The position numbers were made by a program, and so were the translations under genes. The notes beneath the pieces were generated by a model, which had not been told where the DNA came from, made no database searches, and saw only the letters and a list, made by a program, of their open reading frames with translations. Positions 1 to 8,194 of a stretch of DNA of 63,968 bases are shown piece after piece. This DNA comes from Alphaproteobacteria bacterium (GTDB lineage Bacteria; Pseudomonadota; Alphaproteobacteria; UBA2966). Numbering within the stretch: position 1 is the stretch's first letter; every line of letters starts with the position of its first letter. The stretch is from NCBI GenBank assembly GCA_021296255.1, contig JAGWAU010000051.1:1-63968 (forward strand). The letters run 5' to 3'.

Positions 1-1
1 G

Positions 2-1453
2 GTACGCGGCTACCCGGCAACATCGGATCGCTCGAGAGGCTGGCTCCGCTACCTCTATCGCAAGGCGACGACGCCGGATAATTGGGACAAGGACGGCCAG
101 CCGCACGCCCATTGGGACGACGTCACCGGCGAGCCTATGACCTCGTGGACCCGCTTCGATCTGATGAGAAGCAGTTATGCGATACCGCTGTTGGCTGACC
201 GCACCCCGGCGTGGCGCGAAGTCTACGGTCGTATCCTGGACGAGTTGATCATCCGCTTTACCGGCTACTGGGCGGCCAAGGACTGGCTCGATCAGATCGG
301 CGACGACCCGCGCCGTGAGCAATATCCGGAAGCGTGGTACCAGGTGCTGATCCCGCCGTTCCTGCGCGGGAAATACGACGTGCCGGGTTGGACCGCCAAC
401 GGTGTCGAGCCGTGGGGCCTGGCCGCCGCCGGCAACCTGTTCTTCAAAGGAGACTTCCTGCTGGTACTGGGTTTCCACCTCTATGTCACTGGCGACGAGA
501 AGTGGAACCGGCCTTTCGACATGGTGCGTAACGGCGCCGACACGTTCTCCTGGACCCACACGGGGATCGCCGAGTACCTGTTCTCGCAGTTGGCCAAACG
601 GCCGGAGGGGGTCCACTGCGAGAACACCAAGATCTGGCCCTTGTGAATGGCTCGTGCGGGGCTCGGTCTGAGCCTCCATGATGTGCTCTACGGCAGCGAT
701 TTCCGTCCTGCCTTCGACGCTTTCTGGGACCATGCAAAACGAAACTATCTGTCGATCCAGGACGGCAGGGTCGCCGGCTCGGTGACGATGTATTACGACC
801 CGCTGGTTCCCTGTCACCATCCGGTCGACCGCTCGCCTTTCTTTCGGTTTGGCACAGTACACGGCGTGTTGCCCTTGTACCCCGACGATGCCCGCGTGCT
901 GTACGACGACGCCATCGACCAGTTGAGCCGGTACGGGGAGGCGCCCATCGGACCCAATGACGCAAGCCCGGACAATGCCGGAGATCCGATGGCGGCAATG
1001 GGTCGGCTTTTGATCCAGTTCCTGGCGCGTGAATTCGGAGACGAGACGGTCTACGCCAAGCTCAAAATCCATTCAGAGACCAACGATGAGCCGAGCTGGG
1101 ACACCGAGACCGGCGAATTCACATGGCGGTTCGGCCTTGACGAACCGCACCCAAGGGGTCAGTTGAACGCCTCCGCCGCATTTGCGGAGGCGGTGGAGCC
1201 TGGCGCCTGGGCTGATCTGATCGGTCGGCCCAATCTGCGCAAATTCCTGGAGCCGACGGTCTATGGCGTCGATTTTCCCAAGGTCTGTCTGTCGCAGGCG
1301 ATCTATGACGCCGAGCGCCGTTTGCTGGCGGTCACGACGGACGCCGGCGCGCCCAAAGCGGGGGGAGAACAGACGACATTCCGCATCACCAATGTCGATC
1401 CGGATCGCTGTACCATCGAGGCCGACGGCGTGATGTCGGACAAGGAGACATAG
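2..1453 (+). CDS. Linalool dehydratase/isomerase-like protein, 5' partial, candidate selenoprotein
   Basis: The N-terminus lies outside the window; the frame is open from base 2 and gives 483 codons, with one TGA at 644-646 (fragment residue 215) and a TAG end. The sequence resembles the linalool dehydratase/isomerase domain, an (alpha/alpha)6-barrel enzyme that hydrates or dehydrates terpene alcohols. The segment FFKGDFLLVLGFHLYVTGD matches the YKGHLNLMYGLYQLVTG stretch of that enzyme, recalled from memory. Cys206 in HCEN aligns with catalytic Cys171, and nine residues later, at the place of catalytic Cys180, stands the TGA. Downstream, the LHDVLYGSDF segment aligns without gaps to the known enzyme. 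The His of the KGH motif is Asp here, so the substrate probably differs. No ribosome binding site precedes the ATG at 647, so a separate second gene is unlikely. The alternative is a nonsense-mutated pseudogene. Confidence 0.7.
644..676 (+). promoter_or_regulatory. In-frame UGA followed by a bacterial SECIS-like hairpin
   Basis: The TGA at 644-646 is followed by a 7-bp stem, GGGGCTC (658-664) with GAGCCTC (670-676, one G-T pair), closing a five-base loop GGTCT at 665-669. Counted from the base after TGA, the loop occupies positions 19-23. In E. coli fdhF, recalled from memory, the SelB-binding loop GGUCU sits at the same positions. There is no bulged U in the stem as in fdhF. The hairpin lies in coding sequence that reads through normally. 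No selA, selB, selC or selD gene is in the window, so the decoding machinery cannot be checked here. Confidence 0.6.
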
Positions 1454-1706
1454 AAGTCTCGACCACGGTCGGTGAGCACGCTTTCATCGTCCGCATGAAC
1501 TGAGTCAGGGGTTCGACGCCCAAGGCGGCACTCCACTTCCGTCCCTGGCCGAATGCCGAAGCAGCGCCACCCGGTAAGCGTACGATGACGACCCATCCGG
1601 CATGTACTGCCTGCGCGGCAATATCATAAGGTGGCGCGGGCACACGGCACGCAATGTGTACACCAGACGACAACCCGGCCAACTATCGAACCAAAGGAGC
1701 CGATCG

Positions 1707-2681
1707 ATGCAGATCATCAAACGCGGCGAAGTGACCAAGTACGCATTCGATGCCCGAGACGAGCCGGTGCTGCACGTCAAGCAGGAGGAGTCGTTTCAGA
1801 TCGAGACCGACGATGCGTTGTCGGGCCTCATCGAGGACGACAGCGACAATCCGAAGGTGCACCAGTTCGTCGGTGATGCCCACGTCGATGCGCTGAACGC
1901 GGCGTGGCCTCCGAAATACAACCCCGTCGTCGGTCCGATCTACGTTGAAGGTTGCGAGGCCGGAGACGTCCTGGCCGTGAACCTCGAGTTCATCGACCCG
2001 TGGCGTTACGGCTTCTCGGGCATCCTCCCGGGTATCGGGCCCTACGGAGAGTCGACGCGTTGGGGCGGACAGTGCGCGGAGCCGAGGGTTCAGGTCATCG
2101 AGCACCTTCCCGGACCGAGCGGCAAGACCCGGGACGGCAAGGGCAAGTATTCGGACAAGCTCACCTGGGATCTGGAGCCGTTCTGCGGAACCCTGGCGAC
2201 CGCTCCGGAACGCGAGGTCTTCACGTCGCTGCTGGGCCAGGGCCCCTTCGGCGGCAACATCGACTGCCGGGACGTCGCCCCCGGACACACGATCCTGCTG
2301 AACTCCTACCACGAGGGCGGACTGCTATACATCGGTGACATCCATGGTGGACAAGGCGACACCGAGTTCACTGGAATCGCGGACGAGACGCGCGCCACCG
2401 TGCAGTTGAACTGTACCGTCATCAAGAACAAGCGCACGCCGACGGTGCGCATCGTCAAGCCCGGGAGCATCGTGGCGGTCGGAATCAACCTGCCGATGGA
2501 GCACGCCGTCTACGACGCCTGCGCCAACATGATCGACTGGCTGAGCGAGGACTACGACATCAAGCCGCAGGACACCTACATTCGCATGTCCTGCGATCCC
2601 GCCTTCCGCATCCGGACCTACCAGATGGTGCGCGCCATCACCATTCAATATCCCAAGCACCGGCTGAACCCGGCATTCTAG
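1707..2681 (+). CDS. Acetamidase/formamidase family protein
   Basis: The 324-residue product belongs to the FmdA/AmdA amidohydrolase family, cytosolic enzymes that release ammonia from short amides. The ATG at 1707 is chosen because AAGGAG lies at 1693-1698; longer upstream readings lack such a site. Family traits visible are the PIYVEGCEAGDVLAV segment near residues 78-92, the GFSGILPG turn, a GPFGGNIDCRDV motif with the family's conserved Asp and Cys, and GGLLYIGDIHGGQGD. Length is slightly above that of small bacterial members. It lies between the dehydratase-like gene and an SDR on the same strand, about 250 bases after the former, so a shared catabolic role is plausible. The substrate is unknown, and annotated members often act on amides other than acetamide. 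Confidence 0.85.
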   Translation: MQIIKRGEVTKYAFDARDEPVLHVKQEESFQIETDDALSGLIEDDSDNPKVHQFVGDAHVDALNAAWPPKYNPVVGPIYVEGCEAGDVLAVNLEFIDPWRYGFSGILPGIGPYGESTRWGGQCAEPRVQVIEHLPGPSGKTRDGKGKYSDKLTWDLEPFCGTLATAPEREVFTSLLGQGPFGGNIDCRDVAPGHTILLNSYHEGGLLYIGDIHGGQGDTEFTGIADETRATVQLNCTVIKNKRTPTVRIVKPGSIVAVGINLPMEHAVYDACANMIDWLSEDYDIKPQDTYIRMSCDPAFRIRTYQMVRAITIQYPKHRLNPAF

Positions 2682-2763
2682 AGGGGGCGACCTGTATCGA
2701 GGCGCCTCAGGTGCGTGCGCCGATGCACCACCCACGGATATCTAATCAGAAAGGATAAAGACA

Positions 2764-3558
2764 ATGGACCTCGGATTGAATGACAAGGTTGCCGCAGTGA
2801 CGGCTTCGAGCCTCGGCCTCGGCCAGGCGATCGCGATGGAGTTGGCCCAGGAGGGTGCCAAGGTTTCGATCTGCGCGCGGCGGCAGGGGCCGCTCGACGA
2901 GACCAAGGCGGCGATCGAGGCGGCCGGCGGCGAGGTGCTTTCATGCGTCGCCGACATGAACAAGCGAGAGGACATCGAACGCTTCGTCAACGACACCGCG
3001 GCGCACTTCGGGCGTCTGGACATTCTCGTAAACAATGCCGGCGATGCCGCGGTGGGCCGGACCATCGAGGATTCCGACGAGGTCTGGGAGCAGACTTACG
3101 ATATCAATCTCTGGAGCGCGGTACGGGCGACGAGAGCTGCGATACCGTTGATTCGCGAGCAGGGCGGCGGCTCCGTCGTCAATGTCGCCTCGGTGAGCGG
3201 ACACAGCGGGCTCGGCGGCATGGCGGACTACAACTCCGCCAAGGCAGCGATGCTCGCGATGACCAAGACCCTGGCCCAGGACTTGGCCGGCGACGGCATT
3301 CGGGTCAACGCGGTCAACCCGGCCCTCATCCACACCCCGCTGTGGGAACGCCTGGCGGAGGACAGCTTCGTCGGCACGGTCGGCGAGAACGTCGACGAGG
3401 TCTTCGACAACCTTGCCGGTCAGCTCCTCCTGATCAAGCGCTACGGGCGGCCGGACGAGGTCGCGGGCGTCGTCGCATTCCTCGCCTCGAAGCGGGCGAG
3501 CTTCGTGACCGGAGCCTGCTGGAACGTCGACGGCGGCTTCACCAAATTCCTGACCTGA
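2764..3558 (+). CDS. SDR family oxidoreductase
   Basis: A 264-residue classical short-chain dehydrogenase, predicted to oxidise or reduce a hydroxyl or keto group with NAD(P). The cofactor loop is TASSLGLG at residues 13-20, a departure from the usual TGxxxGIG because the first Gly is Ala. NNAG is at 90-93, and the catalytic triad is Ser145, Tyr156 and Lys160 (YNSAK). Asn114 of the tetrad is present in DINLW. The C-terminus ends with the usual [11 protein letters not shown] segment. The start follows an AT-rich leader with AGAAAGGATAAAG as ribosome binding site. It lies 82 bases after the amidase-family gene. The loop sequence resembles SDRs annotated as 3-oxoacyl-ACP reductase-like proteins in catabolic clusters, but the substrate cannot be read from sequence. 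Confidence 0.9.
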
Positions 3559-3713: not shown

Positions 3714-4601
3714 ATGAACTACGAGCTGGGCGGCATCGGCGTTGTCAATCCGACGCCCCGGAACTCCGACGACACGGTCAACGAGGAGGAATACCGCCGC
3801 CACATCTCCTGGATGGCGGACAACGGCATCCGCTTCCTCCAGCCGTGCGCCGGCATGGGCCAGTACATGGAAATCACGCGAGAGGAATACCGGCGCCTGC
3901 TCGAGATCTCCGCCGAGGAGATCGGCGATCGCGTCTTCATCACCGCCTACGTCGCGCACCCGAACCCGCGCCAAGCCATCGAGATGATCAACATCGCCGA
4001 AGATGTGGGTGCTCATGCGGCCTTCCTGATGCAGCCCTTCTTCACGAAGCCGGATGAGGAGGGGGTCTACCTTTACTTCAGGGCTGTCGCCAAGGAGACC
4101 AAGCTGCCGCTGGTGCTCTACAACTGCCCCTCGCGAGCGGGCATCAACATGAGCGTCGACCTCATGGACCGGATCACCGACGAGGCGCCCAACTTCGTCG
4201 GCCTCAAGCAGACCACCTTCGACGAGTTCCCGGATGCGGTGCGCCGCCTCTCGGGGAAGTTCAAGGTCATTCCGGGGGCCGAAGACCAGATGCTGTTTGG
4301 CTTCGCCTTGGGCTCGCCCGGTGTGCTCACCTTCGCGGCCAACGTCATCCCCGACCGCCTCGTTGCTGTCCAGGCGGCCTGGGAGGCCGGGGACCACGAG
4401 GAGGCAAAAGCCATCTGGCTGGAATGCCTGCCAATGTTCAGGATCATCCACATCGAGCCGGTCCCGAATGCCGTGGTCTACATGCTGAACCGCATGGGTT
4501 GGAAATTCGGTACGCAGCGCATTCCGGCGCATGAGCCGTCTGAGGAGCACAAGCAGAAGATCGACGACGTCCTCCGTTCGCTGAAACTCATCGGCCAGTA
4601 G
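3714..4601 (+). CDS. Dihydrodipicolinate synthase/N-acetylneuraminate lyase family aldolase
   Basis: The 295-residue product is a class I aldolase of the DapA family, a (beta/alpha)8 barrel acting in the cytosol through a lysine Schiff base. The Schiff-base lysine is Lys165 in FVGLKQTT and the conserved tyrosine is Tyr136 in VLYNCPSRAG. The substrate-loop sequence at about 42-50 (LQPCAGMGQYMEIT) differs from the GTTGE of true DapA, so lysine synthesis is unlikely and a sugar-acid or other catabolic 2-keto acid is more likely. The ATG at 3714 with GGACGG upstream was chosen over a start at 3651 because family homology begins here. The preceding SDR is on the same strand 155 bases away. Confidence 0.85.
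   Translation: MNYELGGIGVVNPTPRNSDDTVNEEEYRRHISWMADNGIRFLQPCAGMGQYMEITREEYRRLLEISAEEIGDRVFITAYVAHPNPRQAIEMINIAEDVGAHAAFLMQPFFTKPDEEGVYLYFRAVAKETKLPLVLYNCPSRAGINMSVDLMDRITDEAPNFVGLKQTTFDEFPDAVRRLSGKFKVIPGAEDQMLFGFALGSPGVLTFAANVIPDRLVAVQAAWEAGDHEEAKAIWLECLPMFRIIHIEPVPNAVVYMLNRMGWKFGTQRIPAHEPSEEHKQKIDDVLRSLKLIGQ

Positions 4602-5863: not shown

Positions 5864-8194
<2,331 letters not shown>

Follow-up and report, generated by a model that had tools for sequence, protein, structure and literature searches.

A candidate selenoprotein family related to linalool dehydratase/isomerase, with selenocysteine predicted at the second catalytic cysteine

The linalool dehydratase/isomerase of Castellaniella defragrans (LDI or LinD; Pfam PF18566; structures 5g1u, 5hlr and 5i3t) depends on two cysteines, both of which are essential, as replacement by Ala or Ser leaves the enzyme inactive (mature numbering 170/179; PMC6600392). 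The enzyme is furthermore oxygen-sensitive and requires a mild reductant (PMC6600392). Selenoproteins of prokaryotes have been collected in an inventory of May 2026, Table 1 of which comprises 119 families or subfamilies, and no LDI or other dehydratase-named family is found among the 119 of that table (PMC13188914). The families of this inventory resemble the one described here in the exchange of Cys and Sec, the in-frame UGA, the downstream bSECIS and the presence of SelA/B/C/D (PMC13188914). The deep-Sep study adds nine new families, none of them LDI-named in the part of the article consulted, including three hypothetical proteins (PMC12013277); these three were compared through NCBIfam only, which gave no match for the Sec-LDI proteins. 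NCBIfam as such returned no match for four family members (the window protein, L113, L037 and L079), word searches of PMC9312934 and PMC9402790 gave no occurrence of 'linalool', 'LDI' or 'dehydratase', and in full-text literature exclusive of preprints and supplements linalool dehydratase nowhere occurs together with selenocysteine or selenoprotein. Sec-LDI is thus apparently a selenoprotein family absent from the published lists consulted.

The window analyzed here is the whole stretch of 63,968 nucleotides of contig JAGWAU010000051.1 (assembly GCA_021296255.1, an alphaproteobacterium of the UBA2966 lineage), and the gene in question lies at its left edge. A first-pass annotation, made from the sequence alone, had described an open frame of 214 codons, a TGA at 644-646 and 268 further codons, exactly as we find it; the frame lies on the plus strand and ends in a TAG. 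Its gene extent of 2-1453 holds as a continuous frame; it does not hold for the natural start and end of the gene. The 5' end is missing from the window (paralogues start 4 residues upstream), and the TAG at 1451-1453 is, judging from homologous sequences, probably not the natural end. The features of the gene are:

2..1453, plus strand: predicted selenoprotein of the LDI family, cut at its 5' end by the contig edge and frameshifted at its 3' end relative to homologues after about 1441
617..619, plus strand: TGC, Cys206, corresponding to LDI Cys171 by alignment to LDI
644..646, plus strand: TGA, codon and residue 215 (Sec215), corresponding to LDI Cys180 by alignment to LDI
1444..1503, plus strand: out-of-frame remainder of the natural C-terminus, GDIEVSTTVGEHAFIVRMN-stop, seen by homology in another frame, with TGA at 1501-1503

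Past a common 'SD', the L113 homologue continues for 25 residues and the window protein for only 3; five residues present in relatives (QMDPV/I) are moreover deleted in-frame from the window copy. The break at about 1441 (window 1441-1503) looks like an assembly break or a recombination between paralogues, and the window copy may be non-functional, decayed, misassembled or mis-joined. It is the family as a whole, rather than this copy, that carries the selenoprotein finding. The departure point near 1441 coincides exactly with the mapped end of contig C115 (L020), which holds another LDI copy of about 85% identity.

Membership in the LDI family, which had been proposed in the first-pass annotation, was borne out both for the sequence family and for the predicted fold. 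The read-through product of the window gene matches Pfam Ldi with 42.1 bits (gathering score 26.1). All 56 members of alignment A2, drawn from a total of 85 family sequences, match Pfam Ldi at E 0.001. A phmmer comparison with the PDB places residues 206 and 215 without gaps on C170/C179 of 5hlr and C171/C180 of 5g1u, so that the proposed nine-residue spacing proved correct; a profile of the 56 members aligns the catalytic cysteines in the same way (E 3e-13), and eight of the 10 chains that it finds up to E 1 are LDI, the other two lying at E 0.014 and 0.41. The Cys-Glu motif of LDI at the first catalytic cysteine is kept in the window family, the only invariant Cys columns of A2 are 206 and 215, and Cys206 is the first cysteine of the window protein. 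An AlphaFold2 predicted model (pLDDT 90.2) has LDI as its best structural match (Z 31.1, 2.7 Å over 328 residues), with LDI entries at Z 30.5-31.1 over 324-331 residues and other families at no more than 19.2. There are also differences from LDI. Identity is about 16-20% over the structural match, and the family has an extra C-terminal region, past about residue 413, that falls outside this match. The LDI capping disulfide C48-C101 has no conserved counterpart among the A2 members, and His129, which has a catalytic role in LDI, aligns with a variable position of the Sec/Cys family. In LDI, a pentamer, Asp39 and Tyr45 are contributed by the neighboring subunit; for their mapping, an N-terminal family profile was compared with LDI chains and found none up to E 10. 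Whereas LDI is periplasmic (PMC6600392), the N-termini of the Sec forms display no signal peptide by eye.

A contig scan of genomes yielded 212 relatives, and the codon count was made on the best 80 of them. In these best 80 of 212 the codon aligned with residue 215 is TGA in 47, TGC or TGT in 33 and any other in none, which answers in favor of selenocysteine the proposed check for Cys or UGA in homologues; taken together, both catalytic positions, nine apart, are Cys or TGA in 80/80 loci. Six of the 47 TGA loci are identical to copies in two congeneric genomes. The window's own genome (4.25 Mb, 97% complete and 4% contaminated as listed) carries TGA in 4/4 copies holding the site, the three copies with an active-site region beyond the window having one TGA each at the same place, and the two congeners carry it in 7/7 copies; a search of 12 other genomes of the order gave no match. 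Records with a TGA locus extend to Alpha- and Gammaproteobacteria, Defluviicoccus, Acidimicrobiia including Microthrix, Entotheonella and Chloroflexota. A sequencing substitution as the source of the TGA is ruled out, as the codon is common to many independent genomes.

The same counts bear on the possibility that the TGA is a true stop, which leaves either two separate proteins or a decaying pseudogene. The 3' frameshift and the in-frame deletion of the window copy would suit a pseudogene, as would remnants in the same genome, where one copy is broken into three pieces at the C115 contig end (L006/L007/L009) and LDI fragments L008 and L010 occur, and an ATG directly 3' of the TGA in the window would suit a second protein. 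We nevertheless regard a true stop as very improbable. TGA occupies the same catalytic column in 47 of the 80 loci, across several phyla, and TAA or TAG never does; the ATG adjoins the TGA in only 9/50 sites, CTG being found there in 26. Third-position bias also continues past the TGA: codon-position differences between L004 and L107 amount to 22/10/108 before it and 31/20/126 after it. Between the window and L113 the third-position bias is weaker, with 18/11/32 before the TGA and 35/39/59 after it. As for the two fragments, L008 (on C116) measures 93 bp and is 95% identical to the window, and L010 (on C94) is a 46-residue piece with a TAG; they suggest gene turnover.

In an 83-protein tree, all 51 Sec rows group with a single Cys row, L051 (Microthrix), and two Sec/Cys changes are enough to explain the pattern; the tree is a quick one, midpoint-rooted and without bootstrap, in which the long branches of L051 and L044 are of unsure placement. 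The genome of L051 showed no selA, as would be expected if that lineage had gone back from Sec to Cys, with the reserve that this genome is a MAG and its branch long.

Selenocysteine insertion in bacteria involves a hairpin downstream of the UGA, for which the bSECIS model places the apical loop 16-37 nt past the UGA, with G at one of the first two loop positions and often G or U next (PMC13188914). The window offers the following candidate:

652..681, plus strand: predicted bacterial SECIS hairpin, with apical loop GGUCU at 665-669 and a family-wide stem of 659-664 with 670-675

The loop starts 18 nt past the UGA and reads GGUCU, in agreement with this model, and in the window the fold has a 12-pair stem with one bulge. 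A five-pair stem closing the GGUCU loop is present in 50/50 TGA sites and 0/31 Cys sites, which again argues against a true stop, whereas synonymous shuffling leads one to expect 6.5/50 and 0.14/31. The GGTCT loop itself occurs in 50/50 TGA versus 2/31 Cys sites, and codons 6-8 past the UGA are CTC-GGT-CTG in all 50 distinct TGA sites. This set excludes sites that had an N in the 60 bases following the start of the codon or that lay close to a locus end (L078), and identical sequences were entered once (L097 and L099 among others); as one site was taken per locus, the second C115 copy stands outside the 50, and it has the same hairpin. Free energy alone is unremarkable, with a mean z versus synonymous shuffles of -0.64 at the 50 TGA sites (0.04 at Cys sites) and z of -1.28, -0.69 and 0.00 in three stretches of the window. 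All cells of the covariation set, 31 distinct sequences, are paired, and one stem pair appears as C-G, U-A or G-C, with both sides changed in 11 of the 31. In double-changed cells, paired percentage and covariation score, 0/500 shuffles came up to the real sequences; the other two of the five measures, pairs with a double change and pair types, were not above shuffles. Altogether, one of the six stem pairs covaries and three are invariant. In the formate dehydrogenase H gene of Escherichia coli (fdhF), GGTCT lies equally far from the UGA, at offset 21 counted from the codon's first base; the stem sequence differs from that of Sec-LDI and the protein is unrelated. The exact pattern has 14 matches in three genomes of the genus, 11 of which are LDI genes; the remaining 3 were rejected as further selenoproteins, because a reversed-pattern control also gave 3. 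An Rfam match to a snoRNA at 582-769, obtained in a search of window 1-3000, reaches 21.3 bits against a gathering score of 71 and was taken as chance.

Two Chloroflexota members, L035 (SAR202) and L037 (Dehalococcoidia), carry TGA at both catalytic Cys positions:

1961-2005 of L035: double-TGA region, both catalytic codons TGA
3631-3675 of L037: double-TGA region, both catalytic codons TGA

Both contain an extra 8-bp hairpin 13 nt past the first UGA, with the second UGA inside its loop, and its stem is found in 2/2 double-Sec, 1/54 single-Sec and 0/33 Cys genes, duplicates included. This weakly suggests, from two related sequences, that each UGA of the double-Sec genes may have a SECIS of its own. 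When 400 Chloroflexota genomes were searched for further double-Sec members (E 1e-60), 3 of them gave a match, among them the known one with 2 TGA and another with two copies without TGA; the L035 genome is absent from these matches. Ktedonospora (L139), listed with 1 TGA, was rejected as a Sec form, since translation shows this TGA to be the end codon of the gene. Within the family of the known double-Sec genome, 1 of 2 genomes matched, namely the query's own.

Decoding of UGA as selenocysteine also requires dedicated machinery, and the search for it recommended in the first-pass annotation was successful: SelA, SelB, SelD and tRNA-Sec are all encoded in the window's own genome. The NCBIfam scores of selA (574 bits), selB (435) and selD (310) are all past cut-off, and the tRNA-Sec has the anticodon TCA (ARAGORN) and 71.7 bits in Rfam against a gathering score of 47; selA, selB and selC adjoin on one contig and selD lies on another. 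Across the family, selA is past cut-off in 39/42 TGA-locus genomes (the exceptions being L047, L048 and L070, and L054 being left out of the count) and present in 22/33 Cys-locus genomes. With the genome that has both TGA and Cys loci taken out of the Cys set, 39/42 versus 21/32 gives a Fisher p of 0.006, uncorrected for relatedness; since Cys-form genomes often carry selA too, its presence discriminates weakly and lends modest support. A search for formate dehydrogenases in the genus returned no row with internal TGA, which makes LDI a plausible main Sec user.

These results weigh likewise on the idea that the UGA is read as some other amino acid, through a reassigned code or leaky read-through. 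Read-through alone would also yield a full-length protein; no tool result favors this idea, however, and we judge it even less probable than a true stop. The partner residue in homologues is Cys only, the Sec machinery is complete and includes a tRNA-Sec with anticodon TCA, and the SECIS stem is confined to TGA sites; a reassigned code is further opposed by the genome's selA, selB and formate dehydrogenase genes, none of which has an internal TGA. Selenocysteine at the second catalytic cysteine, as first proposed, is hence strongly supported at the level of sequence by the Cys/TGA exchange, the Sec machinery and the SECIS. We hold it as very probable that the window gene represents a genuine LDI-family selenoprotein with Sec at the position of LDI Cys180, decoded via SelB and a SECIS. 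SelB and Sec-tRNA-Sec would decode UGA 644-646 through the predicted hairpin at 652-681, and a selenolate would thereby stand in place of the second catalytic thiol, beside Cys206.

The presumed enzyme, an (alpha/alpha)6-barrel, might act catabolically on an alcohol, an alkene or a similar small organic compound, and the more acidic and more nucleophilic selenol could there serve acid-base or covalent catalysis. A further clue lies at the C-terminus. Cys forms are mostly longer than Sec forms, and 25/31 of them have a Cys-rich tail (23/31 with CxCC) as opposed to 0/50 Sec forms. The contrast (Fisher 1.4e-15, uncorrected for relatedness) may reflect one or few events, as the Sec forms and the Cys forms fall almost into two separate clades. 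The count excludes the incomplete L099 and L088, the second C115 copy, which is truncated, and six loci duplicating G013/G014 genes. Tail-less Cys forms are L044, L051, L095, L097, L098 and L101; tails were seen at the gene 3' ends of L040, L064, L068, L073, L075, L077, L079, L081, L084, L085 and others. Cys-rich tails of this kind are reminiscent of C-terminal thiol relays. We hypothesize that the tail helps to maintain the active-site pair in the reduced state, or acts as a relay for thiols or metal, and that it becomes dispensable with selenium: owing to the selenol, the Cys206/Sec215 pair could stay reducible in proteins that lack the C-terminal thiol tail seen in most of the Cys relatives examined.

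The tail contrast can equally be called upon for a different function, in which the protein is a selenoprotein and the Cys206/Sec215 pair performs redox or metal/organometal chemistry rather than LDI-like dehydration or isomerization. The variable position opposite LDI His129 and the capping disulfide without conserved counterpart agree with such a role, and most uncharacterized selenoproteins have been considered likely redox proteins in a review (PMC13188914). The family and predicted fold are nevertheless those of LDI, the Cys-Glu motif is retained and the gene neighbors are largely catabolic, so that we see redox or metal chemistry as possible but rather unlikely. In the window, three neighbors follow the LDI gene:

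1707..2681, plus strand: acetamidase/formamidase family gene, link to the LDI gene not proven
2764..3558, plus strand: short-chain dehydrogenase, link to the LDI gene not proven
3714..4601, plus strand: DHDPS-family gene, link to the LDI gene not proven

Further along, a peroxidase-family gene of KatG-like length (window 5912-8194) lies close to CoA-transferase and enoyl-CoA hydratase genes. Neighbors vary by lineage and elsewhere include CoA transferase, zinc alcohol dehydrogenase, acyl-CoA dehydrogenase, phosphotriesterase-family, amidohydrolase and acyl-CoA-ligase-type (AMP-binding) genes; 30 neighbors of 16 chosen loci comprised solute-binding proteins, hydrolases and others, several without Pfam match. 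In Entotheonella, genes for solute-binding proteins are found close to the Sec-LDI genes (L034, 977-2689 and 5047-6399; L036, 5417-6901), accompanied in L034 by a GH88-family gene. Clustering of the neighborhoods showed no operon partner common to lineages. After LDI itself (82 loci), the largest clusters cover 64, 31 and 16 loci and the next 11; the former three were discarded as partners, their representatives being ORFs that overlap the LDI gene in antisense or in another frame. Overall, the neighbors suggest catabolism of small organic molecules.

Sequence analysis supports the Cys/Sec exchange, the Sec machinery, the SECIS, the family and the predicted fold. Beyond these, we tentatively propose, with somewhat less than even confidence, a widespread family of non-redox, lyase- or isomerase-type selenoenzymes in uncultured Alpha- and Gammaproteobacteria, Acidimicrobiia, Entotheonella and SAR202-type Chloroflexota. 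One of the catalytic thiols would have given way to selenium, and both of them in a single lineage (a di-Sec site with two tandem SECIS), thus permitting loss of the thiol tail. The family may also partly explain the SelA/SelB of many sponge symbionts, as it offers a candidate selenoprotein in at least the two Entotheonella genomes found here. SelA and SelB co-occur in the majority of sponge symbiont bins and are missing from the majority of closely related references, as reported in 2017 (PMC5649159). The Entotheonella machinery may have other uses too, given that SelA/SelB homologues have been placed in a RiPP cluster there (PMC12858407).

Annotation of the UGA as a stop would split Sec-LDI genes in two. 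What makes the family unusual is that its best-known relative carries out dehydration and isomerization, not redox chemistry. Naturally occurring Cys and Sec enzymes, some carrying the Cys tail and others lacking it, form a ready comparison set, and the finding bears on the debate over the LDI mechanism, acid-base versus covalent (PMC6600392). If true, selenocysteine in a dehydratase/isomerase fold would widen the known uses of selenium.
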